In this document: piece by piece, positions 3,257-19,390 of the stretch
Numbering within the stretch: the first letter of the stretch is position 1
How the letters are laid out: every line of letters begins with the position of its first letter
Source of the DNA: a virus
DNA length: 20,389 bases
Reading direction: 5' to 3' (one strand)
IMG/VR virus record: IMGVR_UViG_3300028025_003754
Span: 1-20,389 of that record
The notes under the pieces: generated by a model
What the model saw: only the letters and a program-made list of their open reading frames with translations
Databases searched by the model: none
Told to the model about the DNA's origin: nothing
Made by a program: the position numbers and the translations under genes

Positions 3257-3919
3257 CTATTTTTTAATACGGATTTTCCAATATATACCACCACCCAAAT
3301 ATGGAACTACTTGATTTCCACCATTAGGTGATTGTTGATTGGATATACCAAGATTTAATTGGTATAATTTATCTGTTTTACTTTTAAGGATTACACCTGC
3401 ACCAATTGAATTGCCGAAATTTACTTTATCCAACGCTCCGTTTATACCAACATATACTTGATTTTTAGGTAGTTCTTTTACTATCTTTGTATCAGTAATA
3501 GTTCGTTCTTTAATCGTAGCATTCCACTTTCTACCTAATATTTTGTTTTGGTATAAAGTATCTGTAAGTTCTATTGTTCCCAAATTATTATCTAAAACTA
3601 ATTTATCTTTATATAACACCTTTTGGTTATACGATTGAACTATTCTAACCGTATCTCCTTTTGTATATACAGGAACTTCTATTCTTTTTTCTTTTTCAAC
3701 AATTGTTTCGTGGTAAATATCTTTACCCTTAACATATTTTATTTTGGTGTGGTCTATTATTACAGTATCAATCTTGTGTTTTAACAACTCGTAGTTTTTT
3801 CCATCTACATTAACTGTTTCACCTACTTTGCCATCATCTTTAGTACATTTGTACCATACAATTCCGGCAGTTGCAAAAATCACAATCCATTTGATATTAC
3901 TCTGTAAAAACTTTAGCAT
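3257..3919 (-). CDS. Membrane-anchored protein of unknown function
   Basis: I do not recognise a characterised family. Residues 9-24 are a single hydrophobic segment (KWIVIFATAGIVWY is its core) with positively charged residues before it, which suggests a signal anchor with the rest outside the cytoplasm. Residues 30-150 are polar and rich in predicted beta strands (repeated T/V/I alternation such as DTVIIDHTKIKYVKG). Residues 154-220 alternate Gly and hydrophobics (VYVGINGALDKVNFG, VPYLGGGIYWKI), reminiscent of short outer-membrane beta-barrel strands. Residue C25 is not in a lipobox. A role in lysis (spanin-like bridging) or envelope interaction is possible but unproven. The start lies 23 bp inside the end of the upstream gene, so translation is probably coupled. 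Confidence 0.7.
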   Translation of the reverse strand: MLKFLQSNIKWIVIFATAGIVWYKCTKDDGKVGETVNVDGKNYELLKHKIDTVIIDHTKIKYVKGKDIYHETIVEKEKRIEVPVYTKGDTVRIVQSYNQKVLYKDKLVLDNNLGTIELTDTLYQNKILGRKWNATIKERTITDTKIVKELPKNQVYVGINGALDKVNFGNSIGAGVILKSKTDKLYQLNLGISNQQSPNGGNQVVPYLGGGIYWKIRIKK

Positions 3920-4535
3920 AATCTTCTTTTATTATTTCCCAACTATCATCTTTTATTTTCTGATAACCAAGTATGTTTTCTTCTGCTTCAGCTATATCAT
4001 TTTTGATATTAGCTTTTAACTCTTCTAAATCACCATCGTAATTCCACTTTTCAGTAGTACCATCCGAATTGGCGAATACGTGCTCCTTACTTGCATCTAC
4101 TAATGCCTCTTGGAACTTTTTAATTAAATCTTTTAAAAACTCAATTTCAAAACTAGCAATCTTCCACTTTTCGTATTCACCCCAATTACCATTTACTCTG
4201 AATGTTTGTTCTTTTTCTGCCAAACAATCTATACAATAACCCGTTTTACGAATAAATTGTAAATGCTTTTGAGTTTTTTTAACTGTTCTACAATTTTTAT
4301 TTTTACAAGTAGATAATGATTGTATGTATTCTCTAATTCCATCGAACTTTGATTTAACAATCTTATATCCTTTCTCTTGTACCCAAGTTACACCATCACT
4401 ATCGGTCCACTCTTCACCAACTGCTCTATCCTGCTTTGTAGCTTTCCAACCATGCGTATTTGTTCCACCATTATCTCTGTTAAAAGCTACATCCAAAATC
4501 TTTTTTCTGGATGGGTGCATGTATTTCTTACTCAT
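3897..4535 (-). CDS. Unknown four-Cys, helix-rich phage protein upstream of terminase
   Basis: No family is recognised with confidence. Residues 1-60 are basic and contain GEEWTDSDGVTWVQEKGY, a segment I recall from hypothetical proteins of environmental phages. Cysteines C77, C82, C101 and C104 (CxxxxC then CxxC) could bind one zinc. Residues 125-205 are strongly helical and charged (IASFEIEFLKDLIKKFQEAL, then LEELKANIKNDIAEAEENIL) and may form a coiled coil. The gene lies two genes upstream of the large terminase subunit, with only the membrane protein between, so a small-terminase or packaging-adaptor role is conceivable; a DNA-binding helix-turn-helix is not evident. No Shine-Dalgarno precedes the ATG; the 50-bp leader is nearly all A/T. 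Its last codons overlap the next gene by 23 bp. Confidence 0.75.
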   Translation of the reverse strand: MSKKYMHPSRKKILDVAFNRDNGGTNTHGWKATKQDRAVGEEWTDSDGVTWVQEKGYKIVKSKFDGIREYIQSLSTCKNKNCRTVKKTQKHLQFIRKTGYCIDCLAEKEQTFRVNGNWGEYEKWKIASFEIEFLKDLIKKFQEALVDASKEHVFANSDGTTEKWNYDGDLEELKANIKNDIAEAEENILGYQKIKDDSWEIIKEDYAKVFTE

Positions 4536-4585: not shown

Positions 4586-7500
4586 TTAGTAAAATATTCC
4601 TAACAATTGATTCAATGAAGCAAATGCTCCAGTCAATTTGAATACATTACCTTTGTAATTAAATACAATTCCTTCTGCTGGTACAATCTTATCAAATCCA
4701 CCAATAGAGTTTATTCTTTTTAATTCCAATTCTAATTTAGCAATCTGTGCAGGTGTTCCTTCAGCTTTAACTTGTGCAACCGTTGCATCTAATCTACTAC
4801 GGATTTGTTGTAATGCACTATCAGGTGCTACCGTTAATACCGAACTCATAAATGACATCACATCTGAACCAACACCCAAGAAGATTTCTTCAAACTTCAT
4901 AATGTTTTCTTTTGTTATTTTTGATTTATCTTGTTTCTCTACACCATCTGCCCAAGTCTTTGCTTTATCATCTCCAATTGAGCGAATACCAAATGATTTA
5001 TCATCAAACGCCCATCTTTTAATTAAACCTTCTACCTCTAATGGTGCTAAAGTTTTACCAGATTTTTTAATAAAGTTTTTCCACCAAGCCTGGTGATAAT
5101 CCGATATACCAGCTTTGTCTCCCAATCCAAACTCACTTTGTAGTTTGTTTATCATAGAAATATATTTTGGTTTTAGCTTGGATAAATCCTCATTTTTTGG
5201 TAACTTCGTAATAGGAGGTCCTTGTATAGTATATTTAGATTGTACGCTTGCATTTACTTTTTTAATCAACGCTCCCAATTTATTTTCTGCACCTTTTATT
5301 TGTCCAATAGGATTTCCTGCTTCGTTATATTCTAATGCGTTGTGGAATACCAATAGAGCCTGTCCGTAAGGTATCACATTCACCGATGTAGGCCAGATTA
5401 CTTCTATATTCATAAACACTTTTCCGTTTTGGAAAAACTTATCTAATTCTGCTTTACCCAAACTACGAAGTGCATTCTCCATATCTTTCATAGCAAAGTT
5501 GTAAGCATCGGTTAATCCACCTCTACCACCAAACTTTGCAGCAACACCATTTGCATCCATAGCATCTGCACCAGCGTTTTGTAAATGTGATTTGTTACGA
5601 GCAGCAATCAATCTACCATTTTTCCAACTGATTGCCAACGCTTGTCCATCGGTTTTTTCTCTAACAACACCTAAATTACCATCCAATGCTTTATTTACTA
5701 TGGTTTTCAAATCACCAAATGTAAGATTTATACTACTATCAAACGGATGGTTCATATGCCCATAAGCACCACCTTCCATTATTAAACTTTCTTTTACGGA
5801 TTTTTTAATAGGTTCGTATCCACGATTTTGAGTATCCTTTGTATCAGTTTGATGACCAGGTTGTTTTTTTCTATTATCATCATCAAAATCTATTGTATCC
5901 AATTCAGGTTCATACCCATAATCTGGTGCATATGTTGATGTTTTGTGATGGTGATTAAAGTTATTATCGGCAGTTCCGTGAGGTTCGTGGTTTTTTGTAT
6001 TTATAGCTTCAAACGCACTATGTTTTACTTTATACCATCCACCACCTGGTGCTCTAAATACTCTTGCTGGTATTCTAAAGGTAGAACCAATTGGTAATTT
6101 ACTGAAATACTTACTATCTATATGTACTACCTTTGTAATAAACTCTCTAGTCTTATTATCTGCACCAACTAATTCAACTTCAATCTTTACAGGTTGTCCA
6201 CCAATTTTGATTGTTCCACCAAATATACCTTTTGATATTTCAGTAAGTTTATTTTCAGTTGTATAGACCGGTGTTGATGATTTGAAATCATCTTTTCTCA
6301 TTATAGTTTTAGCAATCAATTTATTTGCTTGAACCATAAATGGAATGTTGATACCAGTTCTCTTATCTTTTACTACAAACTCATTGTATTGTTTTACGAA
6401 CTCTAAAAACTTTTTCTTATTCTTTGCTAATCTCTTAAAAAAACCAGTTAGTTCTGCTGGTGATATTTCTTTACCATTACGAGGGTCATTTAATCTTTGG
6501 AAAAAATGGTCTGTTTCTTTTCCTAAAACAACATCTTCTGGTGATAATTGAGAGTCTGCATATTTCTCAACTTTATCCATATCAGCTTTTGCCATTTCTT
6601 TTAACTCATTTGGACCTTCCCAATCTTTTTCACTAACCTTACCTTCTTCTTTATCTTTATTATATGAGTCTATTGTTTTTGCCCAAACCGCAGCTGGTAT
6701 AGCTCCGTTTATCATATTATCGGCAAGTTGTAATGTAAACCATTCTATATAAGTTTCATCCGTAATATTTTCTGTACCTGCGTTTATCGCTGCTTTTATA
6801 GCTCCACCAATTATAACCTCACTTGCCATATGTTCTGCTAAATGTACACTCAAACTACCCATTAACCCGGTTACACCATGTCCTATTACTGCACCAATAC
6901 CACCCGTTACAACCATACTAGCAACTGTCAATCCAACCGTTTTACCAATTGCTATCATAGCTTTCTTTTGGCTCTCATCTGGTTTTTGACCTGAAAATAC
7001 TGCCTTAAATCCAGCACCTGCTACATCTAACTCATGTCCCAAATGTTTAGCTTCTCTAACTACACCCTTTACAATACCCTTTGCCTTATCACCAATCCAT
7101 TTTCCAAAACTACGTCTTTCTTTTGATTGTGCTTTGTGTGCTCCTCTAAAAAATTCTTTTTCTTTATTACTCCACTTTGTTAGTTTTTGATTTATATAGT
7201 TTCGTAATACTTCTGGTTTGTCTGTTAGTGTTTTAGCAACTTTTCCAACACTAGCTTTTGCTTGTGGATTTAATGCGGTATCTTTTGGTTTTTGTGCTTT
7301 TTGTTTAACCTTTTGTAATTTTTGTTTATCCGAGCCACCCATTTTAGCAACTAACATCATTGCTGCTTTGTAAGCAGGATGGTCTCTATCGTAGTTCAAT
7401 GCTGAACTTACTTTAATATCTTCACCCGTATCTGGATTCTTTACTAATTGGTTTAGGATTTGTGGTGAATATCCACTACCTTTTACAGATGCTTCTTTTA

Positions 7501-8587
7501 CAATACCTTCACCATACCCAGTATATAATCCTAAATTAACCTGATTTACTTTATCACTCTTTGGTGATTGTTGTCCTTTTTCTATGTTACCCGGAACTTG
7601 TCTTTTATCCATTAAAGCATGAACACGAAGAACTCGCATTGCTTCTTGTCTTGCAAACTCCACTCTATCTAATTTAAGAGCATCTTTGATACGATATTTC
7701 TTACCAGTTGCTGGGTCTGCAATTTCCATATTCATTATGTTGTCCCAATCTACTGAATCTGGTTCGTAATCAATATCACCCTCAATTGTCATTAACTTAT
7801 CATAGTATTTAGGGTCTTCAAATATATGGTCTCTTGCAATTTCAGATGCTATTCTAATATCAGTAGTGTGTTCCATTTCTACATTCACACCCTTCTTAAA
7901 TTCTTTCTTTATAGTATCTAAATCTACTTTATGTTTATCAGCGATTTGTGCTAATGTCATACCTTTGGATAATCCACCAGGTATAAATTCCTTTTCTTCA
8001 TTCAACCCTTTATCTAACATTTGGAATACATCTTTATTGTATTTACCAAAGAACTTTTGAAATTGTTTTTCTTTTTCATCTGGTGATAAATTACTACGGA
8101 ACATATTTCTAACATCGGTTGCACCAAATGAGTTTGATGGGGTTTTAGAATACACATAACCCTTTGTCATATAACCTTCCATATCCTTATCGTTTTTATA
8201 AGGTTTGAAATACTGTCCACCTAAACGCATTGCATCTTTTTCACCCAATGCTATAATAAGCGCAGTTGTTGCATCATTAAAATCGCGTAAGATTTCTACG
8301 GGTTGGTATGGTGATTTTACTTGAATGAATTTTGATGGTGAAACACCAAATACTTTAACTGCAATATCACGTTTCTCATTAAAAGAAAGTGGTGATTTAT
8401 TTGAGTCTTGCACATTAGATGTTGCAATATATACATTTTTTGCTCCAAATACAGAACAAAGGTGTTTGTATGTTTTATAGTGGCCAGCGTGGAATGGTTG
8501 AAATCTTCCCCCAAATACAACTACTTTTTCCTTTACCGATTCGGTCAGTAAGAAAGTTTCCACTAAATAGTTTGATAATTCATTCAT
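4586..8587 (-). CDS. Giant protein with cytidylyltransferase-like N-terminus and ligase-type nucleotidyltransferase C-terminus
   Basis: Two nucleotidyltransferase domains flank a long middle. Residues 20-165 form a cytidylyltransferase-like Rossmann fold with GGRFQPFHAGH (26-36; the HxGH signature is 33-36) and the C-terminal FGATDVR (154-160), matching the ISSTxxR motif of NMN/FMN adenylyltransferases. Residues 230-265 (VEMEHTTDIRIASEIARDHI) resemble DUF5661. Residues 543-605 are Gly-rich and hydrophobic, possibly membrane-active. Residues 685-765 contain AELTGFFKRLAKNKKKF, a conserved phage segment. A His/Asp-rich linker (870-930) leads to 936-1333, where EKTDGQA (KxDG, K978), IEVI (E1062), AEGIVF (E1305) and VFKL (K1317) reproduce motifs I, III, IV and V of the ATP-dependent ligase/capping superfamily (DUF6267-like). 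It is long for either family. Substrates are unknown; NAD or nucleic-acid end repair, or an injected virion enzyme, are inferences. Confidence 0.88.
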   Translation of the reverse strand: MNELSNYLVETFLLTESVKEKVVVFGGRFQPFHAGHYKTYKHLCSVFGAKNVYIATSNVQDSNKSPLSFNEKRDIAVKVFGVSPSKFIQVKSPYQPVEILRDFNDATTALIIALGEKDAMRLGGQYFKPYKNDKDMEGYMTKGYVYSKTPSNSFGATDVRNMFRSNLSPDEKEKQFQKFFGKYNKDVFQMLDKGLNEEKEFIPGGLSKGMTLAQIADKHKVDLDTIKKEFKKGVNVEMEHTTDIRIASEIARDHIFEDPKYYDKLMTIEGDIDYEPDSVDWDNIMNMEIADPATGKKYRIKDALKLDRVEFARQEAMRVLRVHALMDKRQVPGNIEKGQQSPKSDKVNQVNLGLYTGYGEGIVKEASVKGSGYSPQILNQLVKNPDTGEDIKVSSALNYDRDHPAYKAAMMLVAKMGGSDKQKLQKVKQKAQKPKDTALNPQAKASVGKVAKTLTDKPEVLRNYINQKLTKWSNKEKEFFRGAHKAQSKERRSFGKWIGDKAKGIVKGVVREAKHLGHELDVAGAGFKAVFSGQKPDESQKKAMIAIGKTVGLTVASMVVTGGIGAVIGHGVTGLMGSLSVHLAEHMASEVIIGGAIKAAINAGTENITDETYIEWFTLQLADNMINGAIPAAVWAKTIDSYNKDKEEGKVSEKDWEGPNELKEMAKADMDKVEKYADSQLSPEDVVLGKETDHFFQRLNDPRNGKEISPAELTGFFKRLAKNKKKFLEFVKQYNEFVVKDKRTGINIPFMVQANKLIAKTIMRKDDFKSSTPVYTTENKLTEISKGIFGGTIKIGGQPVKIEVELVGADNKTREFITKVVHIDSKYFSKLPIGSTFRIPARVFRAPGGGWYKVKHSAFEAINTKNHEPHGTADNNFNHHHKTSTYAPDYGYEPELDTIDFDDDNRKKQPGHQTDTKDTQNRGYEPIKKSVKESLIMEGGAYGHMNHPFDSSINLTFGDLKTIVNKALDGNLGVVREKTDGQALAISWKNGRLIAARNKSHLQNAGADAMDANGVAAKFGGRGGLTDAYNFAMKDMENALRSLGKAELDKFFQNGKVFMNIEVIWPTSVNVIPYGQALLVFHNALEYNEAGNPIGQIKGAENKLGALIKKVNASVQSKYTIQGPPITKLPKNEDLSKLKPKYISMINKLQSEFGLGDKAGISDYHQAWWKNFIKKSGKTLAPLEVEGLIKRWAFDDKSFGIRSIGDDKAKTWADGVEKQDKSKITKENIMKFEEIFLGVGSDVMSFMSSVLTVAPDSALQQIRSRLDATVAQVKAEGTPAQIAKLELELKRINSIGGFDKIVPAEGIVFNYKGNVFKLTGAFASLNQLLGIFY

Positions 8588-8611: not shown

Positions 8612-11506
8612 TTAATAGTTAGCACAGGCAGATGCGCAACTGAATCCTTCTGTGTAAGTGTAATAAGTTAAATCATTATCATACGATTGTGGTGAAGCAC
8701 TATACATTATTCTGTATGAGTAATTACCATCCGTTGAATAATAACTACCATTACTCAACGATGTACCTGCACCTGTTTTTACTATATTTTCACCTTGATA
8801 AGTGCAAGTTCCACAATCATATTTTTCAGCTAAATAGAAATTGTCAGGACTATATCCACAATCAACTGAATTTGATTCAATAAGTTGATTATATGTTCCA
8901 CAATTTCCGTTTGTATATGTTCCCCACTTATCCCAATTATTTGTTCCAGTACAATAAGTACTCAATAAAGCACCAGCGGCTGGACAACCTGTGATATTAA
9001 TACTATAATTTGCTCCTTTATTACTACTATCAGTTATTATCAACGTAACGTTTCCCGATAATCCACATACAGATGTGTATGTTGGATAATCATACCAAAT
9101 TGCTCCATTATCAACACTAAATCTTCTATTTTGACCAGTACCATTGCTCATTACTATATTTTCAATACACCCAGTTGATGTAGTCCAAGTAGCAGATACT
9201 CTAACATACCCACACCCACCCGGAGGTCCACCTTCGGCATATTCTTCAAGTACAGATGGATTTGAGCCACAAAAGCCATCTGCAATTTGGCCAATTAGTG
9301 ACCAATTGTTTGTACCACCACAATATGTATATAATATTGTTCCAGCCGTTGGGCAAACGCTTGTATCGTTTACATATACTGTATTAGCGTATGTTTGAAT
9401 TTGTCCACTATATGAATTAATCCTTAACGCCATTAAAATGGTTTCTTGTCCTTCACTAGTTGAATCATTCACCAAAGTTTTTGAAAAAGTACCAGTACCG
9501 GAACTTATGGTAACGAATGCTTGGTTTGCTCCATCGGTAAAATCATCACCATTTGTTGTTCCTTCATTTGTTATATATAACACCGTACCATTATCCACAT
9601 CGGTTGTATTAACTGTCCAAGTAATAGTATCACCCTCATTGGCTGATGTAGTATTTGGTGAAATTGAATAAGTAGGTGTTTTACTTGTATCATCTACATT
9701 TACGGTATTTGATGTTGCTAAATTAGAACCACCCAAACCAGTCTTTAATATTATAATAATACTTTCACCACCTTCTGTGATTTTATCTGTTCTTAAAGTT
9801 TTAGAAAGGGTTGCAATATTATTGTTAATACTTATAAAATCTTCGTTAATTCCATCTGTAAAATCATCACCATTTGTTGAACCAGCATTCACCCAATACA
9901 AAGATGTATTTTGAAGATTTGTCGTATTTATTGTCCAAGTTACGGTTCTATTATTTGTTTCGTTTACCGATGTTGTTGATGGTGATATTGAAAATGTAGG
10001 GGTTGTTATATTTAAATAACTTCGTCCTTTATTACTACTATCTCTAATTGCTAAATTATAACTTGTACCCAAAGATAAACCACCAACACTAGTATTTGCA
10101 GGGTAATCGTACCAAGTTGCACCATTATTAACACTAAATTGTCTACCTACACCACTACCATCCGACATTGAATTGATAAATATTACACCATTCCCATTAC
10201 CATCAAAACCAACACTATATGTTGCCTGAACTCTTACAAACCCACAATTGGTTTCACTATATGCTTCTTGTAATATGTTTGTAGTCCCACAATTACCATC
10301 TGCAACCGTCCACCAATAATTCCAATTACCTTGCCCCACACCAGATGATGCACAAAAATCACTTATATACGTCCCATAAGCAGGACATGCACTTGTATCA
10401 TCCACAGTAACGGTGGCGGCGGTAGCTACTGTTGTGCCCGATGTAGAACCTGTCTTTAATTCAATAATTATAGTTTCAGAACCTTCTGATGTATTATCTG
10501 GTATTAATGTTTTAGAAAACGAAGCACCATTATTTTGAATAGTTACCATACCCGAATTATTAGTTTCTGTAAAATCCGAACCATCGGTTGAACCAACATT
10601 TATCCAATATAAATTAGTTCCGTTTTGAACATCCGATGTTGTGATTGTCCAAGTTACTGTTTTATTATCAGTTTCATTTACAGATGTTTTGTCGGGTGCA
10701 ATTGCATACGATGGTGCTTTACTTGTATCGTTTACGGTTACGGTTGATGATGTAGCTACAATTGGACCAGATATTGCGGATGTTCTTAAATTAAGAATAA
10801 TAGTTTCTGACCCATCGGATGTTACATCGTTTGTTAATGCTCTTGTAATTGTGGCACTATTACCACTTATAGTTACATTACCACTATTGGCATTATCAGT
10901 AAAATCTGGTCCAGTTGTTGTACCAGAATTTGTCCAATATAAAACAGTTGCATTTGGAACATTAGTGGTAGTAACGGTAAATATAACAGAACTACCTTCG
11001 TTTACTGAATTAACATTTGGTGCTATTGCATAGGTTGGTGCTAAACTAGTGTCATTTACACTTACCGCTACCGATGTAGCCACAACCGTACCAGAAGTAG
11101 AAACTGTCCTTAATTGAATAATTATAGTTTCAGTACCTTCCGTTGCAGCATCACTTGCTAAAGTTCTAGAAAGTGTGCCTGTATTACTATTTATTGTAAT
11201 TGTACCACTATTGGCTCCACCATTAAAATCTACTCCAGTTGTTGTACCACTATTTGTCCAATATAATATAGTTCCATTTGGAAGATTTGTTGTAGTAATT
11301 GTCCAAGTTACAGTACCACCCTCATTTACGGATGTTACATTGGGTGTAATTGTATAACCAGTACCAGCTAAACCTAAAAACTCCGTCATACTATCGGGTT
11401 CATCTAAATTATAATAAGCAGCATAAGCACGTATTGAGTTGGATGATAACCCAGTTTCCGTTTTTACTTGACTCATTGATATTGAACCCGATGTAGGTAA
11501 AGCCAT
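8612..11506 (-). CDS. Modular phage adhesin/fiber with Calx-beta-like and Cys-rich repeats
   Basis: Probably a virion surface or tail-fiber protein that binds the host. Residues 1-48 (MALPTSGSISMSQVKTETGL ...) are a short N-terminal motif common to phage structural proteins. Five beta-sandwich modules of about 104 residues resembling Calx-beta domains follow at 51-153, 158-262, 267-372, 504-608 and 612-716, each with a SVNEG-type opening, a LYW.N.GTT.G.DF core, an EG.ETI strand and a V.V.DTS ending. Three Cys-rich modules start at 374, 718 and 841 (CPAYGTY/CPTAGT/CPAAGA, a later NW, then GNCG or GFCG). Two FSV.NGA.WYDYP modules sit at 457-500 and 795-838. No enzyme motif is seen. Its ATG overlaps the stop of the larger fiber gene by one base (TAATG), so the two are probably translationally coupled. 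Confidence 0.85.
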   Translation of the reverse strand: MALPTSGSISMSQVKTETGLSSNSIRAYAAYYNLDEPDSMTEFLGLAGTGYTITPNVTSVNEGGTVTWTITTTNLPNGTILYWTNSGTTTGVDFNGGANSGTITINSNTGTLSRTLASDAATEGTETIIIQLRTVSTSGTVVATSVAVSVNDTSLAPTYAIAPNVNSVNEGSSVIFTVTTTNVPNATVLYWTNSGTTTGPDFTDNANSGNVTISGNSATITRALTNDVTSDGSETIILNLRTSAISGPIVATSSTVTVNDTSKAPSYAIAPDKTSVNETDNKTVTWTITTSDVQNGTNLYWINVGSTDGSDFTETNNSGMVTIQNNGASFSKTLIPDNTSEGSETIIIELKTGSTSGTTVATAATVTVDDTSACPAYGTYISDFCASSGVGQGNWNYWWTVADGNCGTTNILQEAYSETNCGFVRVQATYSVGFDGNGNGVIFINSMSDGSGVGRQFSVNNGATWYDYPANTSVGGLSLGTSYNLAIRDSSNKGRSYLNITTPTFSISPSTTSVNETNNRTVTWTINTTNLQNTSLYWVNAGSTNGDDFTDGINEDFISINNNIATLSKTLRTDKITEGGESIIIILKTGLGGSNLATSNTVNVDDTSKTPTYSISPNTTSANEGDTITWTVNTTDVDNGTVLYITNEGTTNGDDFTDGANQAFVTISSGTGTFSKTLVNDSTSEGQETILMALRINSYSGQIQTYANTVYVNDTSVCPTAGTILYTYCGGTNNWSLIGQIADGFCGSNPSVLEEYAEGGPPGGCGYVRVSATWTTSTGCIENIVMSNGTGQNRRFSVDNGAIWYDYPTYTSVCGLSGNVTLIITDSSNKGANYSINITGCPAAGALLSTYCTGTNNWDKWGTYTNGNCGTYNQLIESNSVDCGYSPDNFYLAEKYDCGTCTYQGENIVKTGAGTSLSNGSYYSTDGNYSYRIMYSASPQSYDNDLTYYTYTEGFSCASACANY
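9359..11356 (-). repeat. Coding repeat block: Calx-beta-like modules interrupted by a Cys-rich cassette
   Basis: Three adjacent modules (10391-11356) and two more (9359-9997) encode similar beta-sandwich units of about 104 codons. A Cys-rich plus FSV/WYDYP cassette lies between the blocks, and a second such cassette follows the second block. The repeats have diverged in sequence, which points to old duplications rather than a recent expansion. Confidence 0.75.
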
Positions 11507-14500
11507 TACTTATTATTTTTTAATTCATCTATTTGAGATTGTAACTCTTTCATTCCTTCGATTAAAAGTGCTACTAATTTTTCATAATGAACACCTTTAT
11601 AACCATTATCTCTAGTTACAACTATTTCTGGTAAAACACTTTCTATTTCTTGTGCAATTACACCAACATCATTTCCACTATGAGAATGTATTTCATCAAA
11701 TCCACTCAACCATTGAAATGTATTACCACTAATTTTTAAGATTTTATCCATTGAATTTGGTATTCTCTGTATATTGGTTTTTAATCTTATATCCGAAGAT
11801 GTATTTGCAGTTAAATCACCAGTCAAACTCATAGAACCAGTAACCGATACCTTCCCTCCAATCAAAACTATATCACCGCTCTGTGCTCCTCTATCTACTT
11901 TAAAGTAATTGTTGGTATCACGAATAACTTGCATACCACCTGCGATTATTTCGGTTTTACCAACATCAAATGATACAGTAGCAGATTTTACTGCTGGTGT
12001 ATTTATAAATCCAGTTAAGGTTGTAATACCACCCACATCATAACCCAATAAATTTACATTTTGTACAAACGGAACTATATAATATATACTATCTTCTAAT
12101 AAAATTGATGTTGAAAATGTTCTGTCTGTATAATCAGGTAATGAATTTGTACCAGCAGCTGCATTAGAATTTGCAACTGTATTAGATAGAGTTGCTACAA
12201 TAGTACCGGTATTACTACCCTTTCTAATCAAATACCCATAAGTTGTACTTATACTATTTAAAGAAACACTAGGAGTTGCTTCCATATACGAATAACCAGC
12301 TTCGCCAAGTGCTGTTATTTTTAGTGTAGCAGTTTTACCAACATTTGCACCTGATGCGGTGAATGTTAAATTTTGACCTGTGTATGTTATTTGTGTAGAA
12401 TTATAATAAGATGCACCAGATGAGCCATTTGCAACATCATCGGATGCTACTTGGAAATTACCGGTTATACCACCACTTGTATTTATTGAACCACCAGTTC
12501 TAGATGTAAATTCAGTACCACCATTTATATCAACTTTAAGTTCTCCACTATCATCATATACTTCAATTGCTGGTCTTGCTGCGTTTAATGAAACTTTACC
12601 ATTTAGAGTTACATTATTTTCTATTGAACTTGCGTTAATTGTCCAAAAATTATTACCAAACCCAAATCTACCACTATCTGCATTTACTTTACCGGTCAAA
12701 ATTGCATTTCTAGCAGTTAAATCACCAGTTGAGGTTACACTAAAATTATTACCATTTGTAAATGTATTACCAATTATATTTGATGCCGTTATAGTACCAC
12801 TAATATTTGCATTTGTAGCAGTTAATACTCCTGCAGGTGTAACTCTAAATGGTGCAGAACCAAATGTTGCATTACCCAAATATATACCACTACTATCTGC
12901 TTTAAATATACTATTACCACTGCCGATTTCAATTGTACCACCGATTAATGCACCACTAAATGTACCAGTTGCACCATTTAATGCACCTGCAATAGTTAAA
13001 GATGAACCATCCCATAGTAACGAATTGGTAGAGGATTTTAAAGAAAGTTTTCCACTTGTCCCATCACTACCTATCCATGCTCCCACATTATTATAGCCTT
13101 TGGTTGCTTGTCCAATTGAAATATATGGGGATGTTGTACCACCCGCAATAGTAATATTTGCATTACCACTTGAGTTAGTACCAACGTTTATTGTATTTTG
13201 TACATACGATTCTCTAAATATTGCAATTTCAGCTGCTACAAAAAACGAATCAGTTCCTAATGATTCCCAAAACGAAGTTTGAGTATCGGGTTGTTTATTT
13301 AAGTTTGTAGTTGCGTTTGTGTTTGTGGCATAATATGTCCCATTATACAAAACTGCATCTCTACGGGTTGGGAAATCATCGGTATCATAATATGTTGTTG
13401 TAGAACTCCATGGTCCTCTAAATACTACACCCGGCCCGTTTCCACCATCTGCACCATTCGTACCATTAGTTCCGTTTGTACCATTATTACCATCGTTGGT
13501 TACATTTACACTATGTGTTTTTGTTATAGTCCCACTTGTACCTTCCGAATTTACATAAGTAATTGTAACACTCGTAGCAGTACCAGCATCAGTAGTTGGT
13601 TTAGTTGGTGTAATTGTTCCACTACTATTAGTTCCACCACTTATACTTGATACTCTAAAAGTTGAATTAGCATACGGAACTGAATCATCGTAGGTATAGT
13701 TAGAACCACCTTCGTTTACTGAAATTGTAAATGTAGATGGTGTTCCATATGAACCCGAATTTGTTTTAGTAATTGCCTGTGCATCACTTGAAAATAAAGC
13801 AACAACTACTGGTGCGGCTTTCTTTGCTTTTGAATATGTTACTACTTTTGTTACATCGGTAGTATCACCGGCACCATCCTTATATCTTACTAATAAACTC
13901 AATGAACCACTATCGTTTGTTAGAGATGTTATACCATATGTAGCATCATCGGGTGTTGTATCATTAGCAACACAATTGGTTTCTGTTGCTGATATTATAT
14001 CAAATCTATTATTTGTAGTTAATCCTTCGTTTCGTATAATATCTTCACCACCCACTTTTACAATCACCGAACCACTTGTCAGAATAAACGAACCGCTTGC
14101 TACAAAACCAGTTGAAAGTGCAGGTAAAGTTACGTTTTCATTTGTTAATGAAACTGATAATCCATCTAATATTTTTACAGGAGTTATTTTAATAGCATCT
14201 GAAAATTGGTTTCCAAATTGGTCAGAACCTGATATACTATAAATTGTTTCACTCGTTGAATATGGGTACGATGAACCAGCCAAAGTATAAGTATCAACTC
14301 CATTTGTAGAATTTGTAGATACAAATGTTAATGGTGGCTTTCCACTTCCAGAATTTACAGTTAATGGGGTTGAAGCAGATGCTAAATTTTTACGTTTAGC
14401 TTCTATTGTTATAGTTTGTCCATTTGGGTTTAGGGATAAATCAGTTGCTTTATAAATAAATTGATTTGTATTTGCAGTTACAAATAGACCAGGTGCGTTT

Positions 14501-16176
14501 TCACCATCTTCAAATCTGTAAATTGTTTCATACTCATTTAACCCATCACACGATGCAGTATATGTTATAGAACCAACCAGTATAGATGATACACTACCAC
14601 TAAAATTAGCAATAGTTAAACTTGCACCACTATCCCCCGCGTTTGTCAAAAGACCAGGATATGCTCCCGCATAACTGGCAGGAACTATATAATTACCATT
14701 AGAATCGAATGCCGCAGATGCATAAGTAACTGAACCCGATAAGTTAGTTTTACTAATTGAAAACCCAACTTGTTGAAACTGCGGATTACCAAACGAGCCA
14801 CTACTAAAACGGAACGCCGTTCTATCTGATTCAAATGTTAGTATTTTTGATGGTAAATTATTACCACCCGTAAATGTTTGAGAACCGGTTACTGCTACTG
14901 GAATATAGTTATTATTTACATCAAAGAACTCAAACTTAAAGTTGAATGTTTCATTTGATATATTAGTTGGCATTGATACAATAAACGATACCTCATTTGG
15001 TGAGAACACAGTTTCGGATGATGCTCTTAAACTAACATCTTTTAAAAACCAATTACCTTGCGTTTGTTTAAAGTATAAAGATGCAGATGGTTCTGATTTT
15101 GGTAATGTAAATTGAGATATATAATTTGTAAAATCTTTGGTTGGAAATAATCCAGTAAGTGTATCTACTTTTACATCACCATTTTGAGAGCCACTAACAT
15201 GCAGTTCTAAATTACTTTGTGATGAACCAGTATAGAAAGCATCAAATGCTAATTCATAAACAGTTACATCACTTAAATCCAATTTAGGTATATGTGAAAA
15301 ATTACCATTACCATTCAGTTTAACCGCAGTTGAACCTGAAAATTGATTTGTGTTTAATGTTGCCGTTAGAGAGCCACTATTCCAAAATTTAGAAAGAACT
15401 TCCGAATTAAAAAATCCAGTATCAGTTACTACACTACCAGTTGCCTCAAATGATTGTAATAATTCTTTTGCTTCAATTTGTATATCTTGTATTAATTCAA
15501 AATCACTAACAGTACCCTCCGATGAGCGATATACTTTTACACGCTTTACATCACCTGCAAATGTATCTAAACGAGATAGTTTTATATTGGCATAAGATGC
15601 AATTATAGCAGATGGCGTAACTGTTGAACCAGAAACATTGTAAATTGGTTTTAGTAATTCAGTAATTGTTGCTCTTGGCCTTAAAAAGAAACGAACACGA
15701 GTTGTGTTAGCAAGAGTTGGGTTTATATTTGCAGTACCTACATAACGAATATTGTACTTACCCTTCCATATTTCAGGAACTTCGGTTTTACTACCATCAT
15801 TATCGTAGTATTTTAACTCGCCTAAAATTGTAATGGTACAAGGACCAAATGCAGTTGAGTCAATTGCTTGAGCAACGCTATCCGTTGGATAAACATAAAC
15901 TGCTATTACTTTTGATATACCTTCATAGTATTCAGGAGAACCATCTGAACTTTCGGTATAAACTACTCTACCAGTTGAATCACGAATTTGAACTAACACT
16001 TCCGTATTTGGTTCTAAATAATCAGTACCTGCAATTAGGAATGCGTTTTTACCACCTGTAAATGTATCAGGTAATTCGGTGAGATTAAAATATTGTGATG
16101 TTACTCGTCTATCTTCTAAAAATACAGATTTTAATTCTAATCTATTATCGGGAGCAACTTTAACTTCTACTGCCAT
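11506..16176 (-). CDS. Large tail fiber/spike with collagen-like segment and S74 self-cleaving chaperone
   Basis: A trimeric host-recognition fiber is the likely role. The N-terminal half (1-890) is beta-rich, with a possible carbohydrate-binding jelly-roll around 265-385 and Ig-like repeats beyond it. Seven G-X-Y triplets occupy 896-916. Residues 918-972 (FRGPWSSTTTYYDTDDF ... YNGTYYA ... FWESLG) resemble a CBM5/12-type sugar-binding domain. Residues 1060-1240 have beta-helix-like G-T-I/G-LTA repeats (VLTATNANISGTITASNI). The C-terminus is a peptidase S74 intramolecular chaperone: SDIRLK places the predicted Ser1461/Lys1466 dyad at the same spacing as endosialidase 911/916, followed by GVIAQE and a short coiled coil (1533-1555). 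Cleavage would release about 96 residues after trimer folding. The ATG lies 3 bp after a strong hairpin; no Shine-Dalgarno is visible. Confidence 0.92.
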   Translation of the reverse strand: MAVEVKVAPDNRLELKSVFLEDRRVTSQYFNLTELPDTFTGGKNAFLIAGTDYLEPNTEVLVQIRDSTGRVVYTESSDGSPEYYEGISKVIAVYVYPTDSVAQAIDSTAFGPCTITILGELKYYDNDGSKTEVPEIWKGKYNIRYVGTANINPTLANTTRVRFFLRPRATITELLKPIYNVSGSTVTPSAIIASYANIKLSRLDTFAGDVKRVKVYRSSEGTVSDFELIQDIQIEAKELLQSFEATGSVVTDTGFFNSEVLSKFWNSGSLTATLNTNQFSGSTAVKLNGNGNFSHIPKLDLSDVTVYELAFDAFYTGSSQSNLELHVSGSQNGDVKVDTLTGLFPTKDFTNYISQFTLPKSEPSASLYFKQTQGNWFLKDVSLRASSETVFSPNEVSFIVSMPTNISNETFNFKFEFFDVNNNYIPVAVTGSQTFTGGNNLPSKILTFESDRTAFRFSSGSFGNPQFQQVGFSISKTNLSGSVTYASAAFDSNGNYIVPASYAGAYPGLLTNAGDSGASLTIANFSGSVSSILVGSITYTASCDGLNEYETIYRFEDGENAPGLFVTANTNQFIYKATDLSLNPNGQTITIEAKRKNLASASTPLTVNSGSGKPPLTFVSTNSTNGVDTYTLAGSSYPYSTSETIYSISGSDQFGNQFSDAIKITPVKILDGLSVSLTNENVTLPALSTGFVASGSFILTSGSVIVKVGGEDIIRNEGLTTNNRFDIISATETNCVANDTTPDDATYGITSLTNDSGSLSLLVRYKDGAGDTTDVTKVVTYSKAKKAAPVVVALFSSDAQAITKTNSGSYGTPSTFTISVNEGGSNYTYDDSVPYANSTFRVSSISGGTNSSGTITPTKPTTDAGTATSVTITYVNSEGTSGTITKTHSVNVTNDGNNGTNGTNGTNGADGGNGPGVVFRGPWSSTTTYYDTDDFPTRRDAVLYNGTYYATNTNATTNLNKQPDTQTSFWESLGTDSFFVAAEIAIFRESYVQNTINVGTNSSGNANITIAGGTTSPYISIGQATKGYNNVGAWIGSDGTSGKLSLKSSTNSLLWDGSSLTIAGALNGATGTFSGALIGGTIEIGSGNSIFKADSSGIYLGNATFGSAPFRVTPAGVLTATNANISGTITASNIIGNTFTNGNNFSVTSTGDLTARNAILTGKVNADSGRFGFGNNFWTINASSIENNVTLNGKVSLNAARPAIEVYDDSGELKVDINGGTEFTSRTGGSINTSGGITGNFQVASDDVANGSSGASYYNSTQITYTGQNLTFTASGANVGKTATLKITALGEAGYSYMEATPSVSLNSISTTYGYLIRKGSNTGTIVATLSNTVANSNAAAGTNSLPDYTDRTFSTSILLEDSIYYIVPFVQNVNLLGYDVGGITTLTGFINTPAVKSATVSFDVGKTEIIAGGMQVIRDTNNYFKVDRGAQSGDIVLIGGKVSVTGSMSLTGDLTANTSSDIRLKTNIQRIPNSMDKILKISGNTFQWLSGFDEIHSHSGNDVGVIAQEIESVLPEIVVTRDNGYKGVHYEKLVALLIEGMKELQSQIDELKNNK

Positions 16177-16222: not shown

Positions 16223-19200
16223 TTATTTGTGTGAGATTTTTGAATATCCGTTTTCCTTTTTGATTTCTACCAAAGTATCTACCACATCTCTAATCTGGTC
16301 TAAATGGGAAATGATGGTTACAAAATCAAATTGTGTTTTAAGATACTGAAACAATAGGAATGTAGATTGTAAGTTTTCACCATCCAATGTTCCAAATCCC
16401 TCATCCAATACCAAAAAGTTAGGACGAGGTAGGTTACATACATTTATAAGTGCAACTCTAATTGCCAATCCACTAATGAACTTCTCCATACCACTACACA
16501 TTTCTAATCCCCACTCCTGGTCTTCATATACGATGTTAGCAGTTATATTCTTACCATCCATTGTTAGTGTAACACCAAAATCTACAATTTGTGATAAAAT
16601 GTTATTTACCTCACCCTCAATTACAGGTAAAGATTTAGCAATCAAATCATAAGATACACCATCTCTTTTAACTGCATCCAAATAAAAATCGTATGTTACA
16701 TATTTTTCTTCTAACTCGCTTGCTTCTTCAATTTTTTGGTACATACCAGCAATCTTTTCTAGCAATCTCGAGCTTGAACCAGTTATTGACAACATTTCTT
16801 TTTGTACGGAGGCAATACTTTTATCAACAATTTCAATATTACCTTTAGCAATATCAATATCTTTTTGAAGAACTTTATTGTTTTTGATTGTAGCTTCGTT
16901 TTCATGATACCTTTGGATTAAAGTTTCTATATTTTGTAACTCCAATTCAGCTGCTTGCTTCTTACTTTCGTATGATTTAATATCAACTACTAATTTTTCA
17001 GCACTCAACTTACCCTTATCAAATTTTTGTTTAAATGATTTGTAGTCATTATAATTATCAACTACTCCATTTAATTTTTGTAATCTGTGTAAAGTTTTGG
17101 AATAATTTGTTTCCAACTCTTCCAATACAATTCTTTGAGAGTCTACTTCTTGTTGTGTTTTCTGTGCATCTTTTACGAACACATTATTCATACAGAAATT
17201 ACAATTAGGGTCATATTCATGCTCCGCTAAATGTACCAACTTCTCCTCATTCTTTTCCAATGAAATCTTACACTTTTCAATTGAATGTAAAGAAGATGTT
17301 TGTAAGTTAGATAATCGTAGATATTGAGTATGTGCTTCTTCAATCTCTAACTCACCAAATGTTGCCAAATCGTTTATACTTTGAGATATTTGAACCAAAG
17401 CATCTTTAAATTGTTCTAATTGTTCCAACTTTTTAGCTTCATCATCTTTAAGTTGTTGGATTTTATCTAATTGATTTTGTTTCTTTTTATCCAATCCTTC
17501 AATATCCACAATATTAGCATCTACTGCTACCAATTGTTGTGTTAGTTCTAATAGGGTATTGTTGTGATTTAACCGGTCTTCTGTCAGTTGGTTATACTTT
17601 CCTTCTTCTAACGAATAACTATTGCTTAAATCCACTACTTTTAACTCATCATTGGCCAATTCGGTTGTGAAATCATTTGATTTAAATTTCTTTAACAAAA
17701 TTTGAACTTCTTTGATGTCTTCTAATGCATACGCATACAATTTATCAAATACATTGATACCCATAAATTGTGCTAACAAATCTTTTCTTTCACTTTGTGA
17801 TTTGTCAATAAATAAAGCATTATTACCTTGTAAGGATAAAGCGGTTAATACAAAATCCTCATAAGTTCCTAAATATTGTGAAATGTTTTTATTTGTATCT
17901 CTACGCTCTGTTCCGTTCAATGAAACCGCTTGCCCATCAACTTCTTTCCAAAACTGCACATCTACTTTTACATTTGTAGCTTTTGAGTTTTGTGCCGCAG
18001 TTCTTTCAATAAAGAAATCTTCACCATTAATTTGAAAATGTAATTTACATTTAAAATTGGATTTACGATTGTTTAATATAGCAGATGCTCTAAATGCTCT
18101 ACTACACTTATCAAATGCGCAGAATGATACTGCATCAAAAATAGATGATTTACCACTTGCGTTTGGAGCAAATAGACCAATGACACCATTTAACTTTGTG
18201 AAATCAATAACATTATCTTCTCCATATGAGAACATATTTGAAAACTCAAATTTAATAGGTTTCCATACAATGTTTTTAGCCAAATCTTCATCTGTAAGTC
18301 TTTTGTTTAATTCTGTGTTTAATGATTTAACATTTGCAAGGTTATGTTCATCAATTGAAAATGAACGAACTAAATAATCTTCAATCAATCCATTTTGATA
18401 ATCTACATCATTAATATCGCCAACGTTAATTTTACCATCTCTAACGCCGTTACGGAGTTTAGATAAACTGTCTGTTTTAGTAATCGTAAATTCATCAACA
18501 TTATATTTCTTTTTAATTTCAGTAGTAACTCGCTTCATATCGCCAACATCCGTATTGGATACATAAACACGAAGACGAGGTTTTTTGGGCATATCCGTTA
18601 CAATAGGAACTATACCATTATCTACGTGTAGGGTATAGTAACCATAATCGTTTGGAATATCAACGTAAGTAGGTTTTAAAGTTTCAACATCCCAAATAGC
18701 ATACCCGTGATTTTCTAATGCTTCTCCATGTGATTGCTGAATAAGTGAACCAGGATAAACTACAATTGGATTTGATTGCTTAACAGTCTGACGTTTGTGT
18801 ATATCACCTAATAAAGCTGCATCGTATCCTTCAAAAATATCTGTGGTAAAATTACGAGAACTAATAACATATCCAATATCTGTTTGGGATTTATCAATTG
18901 GTCCGTGAAAAAGAGCAATCTTAACATCACCCTGAATATCAGTTCCTTTTGGCCAATTCTCTTTCTTATCAAAGATACTGAATACACCAAATGTAATATT
19001 ATGAACTTTAACTACCTCTGTATCACGTAGGTAATATAGATTGGGCAGATTAAGTCCATCTACGATTGGAGATAAAGCATCTAATCTGTGGATATTATTT
19101 AGATTACAATCGTGATTACCTGCGATTAAGAATGTAGGACATAATTCAGAACACTCTCTTAAAAAAGCTGAAATCTCCTTTACTAATTCAGGTGATAATT

Positions 19201-19390
19201 CCAATTTAGCATGAGCTATATCACCAGCTAAATAAATTATTGCATCTTCTGTACCACGTTTCTTAATATCTGAATACAATTTTTGGAATACTTCTTTGTA
19301 TTCATCGTGTCTCTTCAAATTGCGAATGTGGACATCTGCAATATGATAAATGGTCTTAATTTTCTTAAAACCTAAATCTATATTTCTCAT
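16223..19390 (-). CDS. Fused Mre11/SbcD-Rad50/SbcC-type nuclease-ATPase (T4 gp47-gp46 in one chain)
   Basis: In T4, gp47 nuclease and gp46 ATPase form a complex that resects DNA ends for recombination-dependent replication; here both are one polypeptide. Residues 1-345 are the metallophosphoesterase, with ADVH (D19, H21), GDIAH (D57), GNHD (91-94), FHG (H162) and GDIH (D196, H198), a complete metal-binding set. From about 375 the ATPase begins: Walker A APNASGKSS (408-416), long coiled-coil arms (about 560-900), a zinc hook CNFC (C730/C733), signature CSGMEKFISG (965-974), Walker B FLVLDEGFGTLD (992-1003, E997) and H1029 as switch histidine. No frameshift or internal stop separates the halves, and the linker (about 345-375) shows no obvious restart. 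Size roughly equals gp47 (339) plus gp46 (560), with longer arms. Its ATG overlaps the primase stop (ATGA). Confidence 0.95.
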   Translation of the reverse strand: MRNIDLGFKKIKTIYHIADVHIRNLKRHDEYKEVFQKLYSDIKKRGTEDAIIYLAGDIAHAKLELSPELVKEISAFLRECSELCPTFLIAGNHDCNLNNIHRLDALSPIVDGLNLPNLYYLRDTEVVKVHNITFGVFSIFDKKENWPKGTDIQGDVKIALFHGPIDKSQTDIGYVISSRNFTTDIFEGYDAALLGDIHKRQTVKQSNPIVVYPGSLIQQSHGEALENHGYAIWDVETLKPTYVDIPNDYGYYTLHVDNGIVPIVTDMPKKPRLRVYVSNTDVGDMKRVTTEIKKKYNVDEFTITKTDSLSKLRNGVRDGKINVGDINDVDYQNGLIEDYLVRSFSIDEHNLANVKSLNTELNKRLTDEDLAKNIVWKPIKFEFSNMFSYGEDNVIDFTKLNGVIGLFAPNASGKSSIFDAVSFCAFDKCSRAFRASAILNNRKSNFKCKLHFQINGEDFFIERTAAQNSKATNVKVDVQFWKEVDGQAVSLNGTERRDTNKNISQYLGTYEDFVLTALSLQGNNALFIDKSQSERKDLLAQFMGINVFDKLYAYALEDIKEVQILLKKFKSNDFTTELANDELKVVDLSNSYSLEEGKYNQLTEDRLNHNNTLLELTQQLVAVDANIVDIEGLDKKKQNQLDKIQQLKDDEAKKLEQLEQFKDALVQISQSINDLATFGELEIEEAHTQYLRLSNLQTSSLHSIEKCKISLEKNEEKLVHLAEHEYDPNCNFCMNNVFVKDAQKTQQEVDSQRIVLEELETNYSKTLHRLQKLNGVVDNYNDYKSFKQKFDKGKLSAEKLVVDIKSYESKKQAAELELQNIETLIQRYHENEATIKNNKVLQKDIDIAKGNIEIVDKSIASVQKEMLSITGSSSRLLEKIAGMYQKIEEASELEEKYVTYDFYLDAVKRDGVSYDLIAKSLPVIEGEVNNILSQIVDFGVTLTMDGKNITANIVYEDQEWGLEMCSGMEKFISGLAIRVALINVCNLPRPNFLVLDEGFGTLDGENLQSTFLLFQYLKTQFDFVTIISHLDQIRDVVDTLVEIKKENGYSKISHK

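Follow-up and report, generated by a model that had tools for sequence, protein, structure and literature searches.

The prohead protease gp21 of phage T4 cleaves after L/I-X-E (PMC9026906), and in cyanophages, a cytidyltransferase-like enzyme of the virion has appeared in three proteomic studies since 2010, with its function described as unclear. Mass spectrometry placed it in the virions of S-SM1, where it is T4-GC190 and belongs to the cyanophage core genes (PMC3037559), of S-CREM2 (ORF154) (PMC10665884), and of S-SZBM1 (gene 140), for which its function was called unclear (PMC9146016). Here, we analyzed a homologous domain in a protein of 1,333 amino acids encoded by a 20,389-nucleotide viral stretch, positions 1 to 20,389 of the IMG/VR record IMGVR_UViG_3300028025_003754 (the window below). 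The fragment comes from an uncultured T4-like phage, and the gene is a complete open reading frame (ORF) that occupies exactly positions 4586 to 8587 of the minus strand, on which all window features given below lie. Its product is composed of an HxGH nucleotidyltransferase (NT), a variable middle, and a ligase-like domain, an architecture matched in 97 homologues. We consider it about an even chance (a probability of roughly 0.5) that this is a head-packaged, modular "polyvalent" polyprotein, processed by the phage protease and delivering nucleotide-metabolism and RNA-sealing enzymes.

Two unrelated nucleotidyltransferase domains at the ends of the polyprotein

The original prediction, made from the sequence alone, had placed two unrelated nucleotidyltransferase domains at the two ends of the protein. 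Structure prediction, with rows from public phage records left out of the alignments, returned both folds with good confidence and with matches to solved structures, and the active-site residues of both domains were conserved.

By its alignment, model, and fold searches, the C-terminal part (residues 937 to 1333; 4589 to 5779) is a covalent nucleotidyltransferase resembling RNA ligases, in which a helical insert of about 200 amino acids separates motifs IIIa and IV. The KxDG, EGIVF, and motif V lysine reported earlier were all present, as motif I, K978-T-D-G (5645 to 5656; K, D, and G invariant in 73 homologues), motif IV, E1305-G-I-V-F (4661 to 4675; E, G, and F invariant), and motif V, K1317-L-T-G (4628 to 4639; K, T, and G invariant), while motif III corresponds to E1062. 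The residues invariant in the 73 diverse representatives were E977, K978, D980, G981, A996, R997, K999, E1062, E1305, G1306, and K1317 (the number in the aligned fragment plus 936 gives the number in the window protein), and these include K978 and E1305, the two for which conservation across homologues had been expected.

The AlphaFold model of residues 937 to 1333 had a predicted local distance difference test score (pLDDT) of 89 and a predicted template modeling score of 0.84. When it was searched against the Protein Data Bank (PDB), nearly all of ranks 1 to 49 were RNA or DNA ligases or related nucleotidyltransferases, the RNA ligases being of the Rnl1, Rnl2, Trl1, Naegleria, and archaeal types. 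The best E value was 2e-3 and the probability reached 0.99; the TM-scores were only 0.2 to 0.3, probably because of the helical insert. Sequence searches of the window domain against Pfam and PDB gave no match, and in PDB sequences the ligase-like profile found only weak, unrelated matches (ribosomal protein eS6), so that the fold search was needed. The fold matches agree on a covalent nucleotidyltransferase, and the nearest specific reading is a putative RNA ligase. Two long relatives (G003 and G001; L243 and L244) have a separate, conventional RNA ligase-like gene besides the polyprotein gene, that of G001 scoring below the curated cut-off.

At the other end, residues 18 to 200 (7988 to 8536) form the NT, which resembles nicotinamide mononucleotide (NMN) adenylyltransferases. 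Both of the HxGH/ISSTxxR-type motifs proposed for it were found, as GRFQPF-H33-A-G-H36 (H33 to H36, 8480 to 8491) and G155-A-T157-D-V-R160, an (S/T)xTxxR motif (8108 to 8125). In line with the cytidylyltransferase families suggested at the outset, it matched the Pfam family CTP_transf_like (E = 9.4e-5; 23.1 bits, above the curated cut-off of 21) and the cytidyltransferase family phrog_395 (E = 7.4e-9). Residues G27, R28, P31, H36, K117, D118, T157, and R160 were invariant in 26 aligned homologues. Conservation of the motif histidines thus held for H36 but not for H33, which is replaced in 11 of the 26, mostly in a subgroup with GRFQPFGPHH; a further subgroup has the divergent motif GGFKPPHGGH. 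The predicted structure (pLDDT 85) matched NMN and nicotinic acid mononucleotide (NaMN) adenylyltransferases in the PDB (E of about 1e-6, probability 1.00), consistent with a Rossmann-like adenylyltransferase fold.

The conserved residues bear on one rival explanation, that of a structural or scaffold head protein in which ancient enzyme folds are kept for binding and catalysis has been lost. Were the role purely structural, there would be little reason for all six ligase motif residues to stay invariant in 73 diverse homologues, or H36, T157, and R160 in 26, and we regard this rival as very improbable, although the size of the protein, its position among late genes, and the presence of DUF5661 and other middle modules without known activity would suit it.

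The fold matches of the NT raise another alternative, a counter-defence that restores nicotinamide adenine dinucleotide (NAD), in which a NadM/NadR-like NMN adenylyltransferase (the NT) would be joined to a ligase that consumes NAD (the C-terminal domain). NAD restoration by phages is known (PMC9503650), a Nudix module like that of NadM is present in one homologue, and among curated models and structures, those of NMN/NaMN adenylyltransferases are the nearest. However, against the curated NMNAT models (NadM/NadR/NMNAT), the NT scored 16 to 23 bits, far below the cut-offs of 127 to 449, and pantetheine-phosphate adenylyltransferases matched its model nearly as well as the NMN/NaMN enzymes did. 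A search for NadV/Nampt (PF04095) in six long relatives found none. This explanation appears unlikely. The earlier suggestions of two chemistries supplying one another, of a defence evasion, and of NAD synthesis by the NT remain conjectural.

The enzyme pair is widespread in viruses and has a cyanophage counterpart

We found the ligase-like domain encoded in at least 570 viral stretches in each of three scans. In genome_contigs, only two metagenome-assembled contigs carried it, so a cellular origin was rejected and the domain is essentially viral in the collections searched. Uniqueness of the pair to the window phage was likewise rejected, since the pair is widespread. Among the distinct ligase-domain ORFs examined, 97 had the NT in the same chain, 72 were cut by the contig end, and 3 had the NT in a nearby gene. 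Sixteen ORFs were scored as having no visible NT. Twelve of these are complete and begin with divergent versions of the NT motif (e.g., GGFKPPHGGH); of the other four, two come from a single broken frame, and two are separate ligase-like genes close to the end of a contig. In the 462-kb phage LR756500 (L003), the gene for the ligase-like domain and that for the NT are consecutive. In one locus (L086:2429-3661), the ligase-like domain is divided between two reading frames, perhaps through a frameshift or an error of sequencing.

In cyanophage S-PM2, the order is reversed within one protein, with DUF6267 (E = 1.6e-111) followed by CTP_transf_like, and the DUF6267 part shows the pattern KWDG...GDLLF...PEGFVA...KIV. 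In other cyanophages, a DUF6267 gene lies directly 5' of the "cytidyltransferase" gene (T4-GC 71 and T4-GC 190, respectively), and the two were found at one place in 201 phage records. The names DUF6267 and DUF5661 were absent from the papers searched. The lead toward DUF6267 in the original prediction proved useful: cyanophages do have a counterpart ligase-like domain beside or fused to an NT, but it belongs to a different family by sequence. The DUF6267 (PF19782) profile gave no Pfam match to the window domain at E 10, and hhalign of this domain against the cyanophage DUF6267 alignment gave a probability of 2% (E = 0.022). Membership was rejected on these grounds, and DUF6267 was kept as a functional parallel. 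The window model retrieved the S-PM2 protein from a viral structure library (E = 7e-6), and as modeled, the two domains look alike and have the same partner; we do not claim membership. For the NT, hhalign of the window family against the cyanophage family gave E = 5e-8, and both match phrog_395, so that homology to the counterpart appears firmer for the NT than for the ligase-like domain.

The pairing of the NT and the ligase-like domain is old, and its occurrence in two domain orders and as neighboring genes argues strongly for a connection between the two activities. The same observation would be expected if the two enzymes were one metabolic or nucleic-acid-modifying pair working in the infected cell, with head packaging incidental or absent; the NT, for example, may produce a nucleotide in activated form, which the covalent nucleotidyltransferase would then attach to RNA, DNA, protein, or a small molecule.

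Candidate prohead-protease sites and virion data suggest packaging into the head

The N terminus of the window protein resembles a capsid-targeting propeptide (MNELSNYLVETFLLTE, residues 1 to 16; 8540 to 8587), with L/I-x-E at E10 (LVE10) and E16 (LTE16). L/I-x-E was present within residues 5 to 24 in 73 of 89 distinct homologue N termini, compared with 4 to 12% at positions further in and 39% for other ORFs of the same loci. A candidate cleavage site just after the NT, L195-N-E197 (7997 to 8005), has L/I-x-E in 99 of 101 distinct homologues (24.6% of background windows), and another before the ligase-like domain, I936-M-E938 (5774 to 5782), has it in 77 of 94 non-redundant homologues (9.6% background). 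The sequence before the ligase-like domain is variable upstream and of low confidence in the model, so that the conserved site there looks like a short linear signal. Over the whole window protein, L/I-x-E lay no more than 6 residues from five of seven module borders, which was reached by only 5 of 200,000 random placements; with the inner borders alone, 759 of 200,000 reached the observed count.

A gp21-type protease (Peptidase_S77) was found in all eight long relatives tested (the window itself, at 20 kb, ends before that region), and the propeptide of their major capsid proteins seems to end, about where expected, in a sequence of the LLDE^A type, whose position we infer. The three cytidyltransferases detected in cyanophage virions begin with MKKFSAFLNE^A, MKNFSSFLTE^A, and MRFRQFIIE^A (carets, putative cuts). 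These starts, of the type M(K/R)xFxxF(L/I)xE^A, resemble the T4 IPI start MKTFKEF...ITE^A. The likely protease sites between the parts suggest that the window protein is probably loaded into the head, cut there, and injected. A virion or injected protein, as had been suspected earlier, is therefore likely, given the propeptide-like start, the protease-like sites, and the homologous NT in cyanophage virions. An enzyme pair that simply works in the infected cell would not readily account for the propeptide-like N terminus, the sites between modules, or the three virion detections, and the late-gene position adjoining terminase and portal does not favor it either; we find that explanation rather doubtful.

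The middle of the protein is exchanged among homologues

The edges of BLAST matches split the middle into modules at residues 202 to 270, 664 to 786, 788 to 863, and 863 to 933, with residues 271 to 663 showing no further division. The first of these (7778 to 7984) is a DUF5661 module (PF18905, E = 3e-14), and 17 BLAST matches have an edge at residue 202. The second (6230 to 6598), delimited by PHROG and BLAST edges, resembles phrog_14518 and is flanked by L-K-E664 and L-T-E783. It is homologous to a separate small protein in the immuto, Melnitz, and phiM12-group phages, and in Flavobacterium phage immuto, the DUF5661 and phrog_14518 modules together make up one separate small protein. The Gly-rich hydrophobic stretch previously noted in the long middle is real and covers about residues 553 to 607 (6767 to 6931).

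Other homologues carry other modules in the middle, such as a tRNA nucleotidyltransferase (CCA-adding/poly(A) polymerase; E = 7e-59) in L104, zeta-toxin/polynucleotide-kinase-like kinases in L095 and L145, a Nudix module in L164, and an RNase_T exonuclease module in L122. There was one ParB_N match and one Zn_protease match among 36 homologues. Judged from these sequence matches, the middle is a swap region whose modules are exchanged among homologues; this variability, with protease-like sites at the borders, had no place in the original prediction.

A proposed route from the prohead to the infected cell

In the mechanism that we propose, the short N-terminal propeptide would target the polyprotein to the prohead core, where a prohead protease of the T4 gp21 type would cleave it after L/I-x-E, both at the propeptide and at the borders of the modules. 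The products, as separate proteins within the head, would be the HxGH adenylyl/cytidylyltransferase, the covalent nucleotidyltransferase, and the small modules of the middle; injected along with the DNA, they would aid the virus as infection begins. The C-terminal domain would most likely form a lysine(K978)-AMP (adenosine monophosphate) intermediate and seal or modify RNA ends, thereby repairing RNA (e.g., tRNA) cut by host defences, and the N-terminal domain would most likely make a dinucleotide from a nucleoside triphosphate, NAD being the first guess. The cleavage, the injection, the substrates, the RNA-repair role, and the NAD supply are steps that we infer. A more specific version remains tentative: the late gene may encode several individual enzymes in a row, joined through prohead-protease sites and built around an obligatory adenylyltransferase/RNA-ligase-like pair. 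After being cut apart in the capsid, they would be injected as a kit for RNA repair and nucleotide supply, which would protect translation during the first minutes of infection.

Several findings weigh against this proposal. Pfam RNA ligase families matched neither the window domain nor any of 36 family members, the substrate specificity of the NT is not readable from its sequence, and the negative search for NadV/Nampt counts here as well. L/I-x-E is a short, common tripeptide, and in a marine subgroup, M replaces E before the ligase-like domain (KELLLM^GG, with LLM for LLxE), so that this site is not universal. A clearly RNA-repair-like module is present in only about 5 of 36 representatives and is thus suggestive only. 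The virion detections are of cyanophage NT homologues, none being from the window's own phage. Moreover, the DUF6267 protein of S-SZBM1 (gene 141) is without a propeptide-like start and is not named among the virion proteins in PMC9146016, which would fit a pair working in the infected cell; head packaging of the ligase-like part rests on the fusion in the window family.

Genomic setting

The polyprotein gene lies in a late-gene and virion-gene neighborhood, between tail-type genes and those for terminase and portal. It is preceded by a primase gene, a fused gp47/gp46-type gene, and the genes for two long tail-type proteins, and it is followed by genes for a 212-amino-acid zinc-finger-like protein, a small membrane protein, the terminase large subunit, a 360-amino-acid protein, and the portal. 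Among the terminases of cultured phages, the nearest comes from the Flavobacterium phages "immuto" (57.7%).

Some of these neighbors have features of their own. The recombination nuclease subunits of the gp47 type (SbcD-like) and the gp46 type (SbcC-like) appear to be fused into a protein of 1,055 amino acids (16223 to 19390), as in Microcystis phage Mel-JY01. The two tail-type proteins (8612 to 16176) are very large and repetitive, and the end of the one with 1,556 amino acids (SDIRLKTNIQRI...) resembles an intramolecular chaperone of tail fibers. The zinc-finger-like protein directly downstream of the polyprotein (3897 to 4535) is seemingly kept, as compared by eye, in the 484-kb phage LR756508 (L002:8554-9198). 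The 360-amino-acid protein adjoining the terminase gene (539 to 1621) is a patchwork of DUF5872, a Zn-ribbon, and several unknown PHROGs, and a similar Zn-ribbon occurs in the middle of the polyprotein of one homologue (L006).

Comparison with known systems

The present results connect the virion cytidyltransferase with a regular ligase-like partner, which is DUF6267 in cyanophages and a different family in the window; in two domain orders and as neighboring genes, the pair spans hundreds of aquatic T4-like phage contigs. The analysis also supplies a testable route of head packaging, protease cutting, and injection. If it is correct, phages would deliver an RNA-sealing activity together with their DNA, with no wait for synthesis, and modules bordered by L/I-x-E would be a way to find other head cargo.

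With the RNA ligases Rnl1, Rnl2, Trl1, and that of Naegleria, the window domain shares the fold and motifs I, III, IIIa, IV, and V; it differs in its lack of a sequence-family match, its low TM-scores, and its insert between motifs IIIa and IV, and its activity is a predicted one. The cyanophage pair (T4-GC 71/T4-GC 190; phrog_455/phrog_395) has both kinds of domains, adjacent or fused, with a homologous NT, and DUF6267 shares the KxDG...EG(F/Y)V...K motifs and, in S-PM2, a fold match with the window domain. Its order is reversed, however, DUF6267 is a separate family by sequence, and the long module-filled middle is missing.

The polyvalent proteins of phages and conjugative elements (Iyer et al. 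2017, PMC5512222) are, in the parts of that paper considered here, like the window protein in being large, in combining unrelated enzyme domains, in belonging to the late genes, in having swappable modules, and in their presumed packaging and injection. None of their published hub domains (metallopeptidase, ArdC, ART, SNF2, ParB-like) is found in the window protein, and the passages covered describe no pair of an HxGH NT and an RNA-ligase-like domain; they report no linkage of RNA ligases to the 2H domains of the polyvalent type and only few polyvalent proteins in cyanobacteria (PMC5512222). Relative to the proteins described there, the protease-like sites between modules are the added feature of the window family. 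The T4 internal head proteins (IPI to IPIII and Alt; PMC9026906), which carry a capsid-targeting sequence and are cleaved by gp21, have in common with it a short N-terminal propeptide ending in L/I-x-E, together with a gp21-type protease in the genomes of its relatives. The window protein, in contrast, has such sites at internal borders as well, and if it is packaged as we propose, one chain could yield several cargo proteins.

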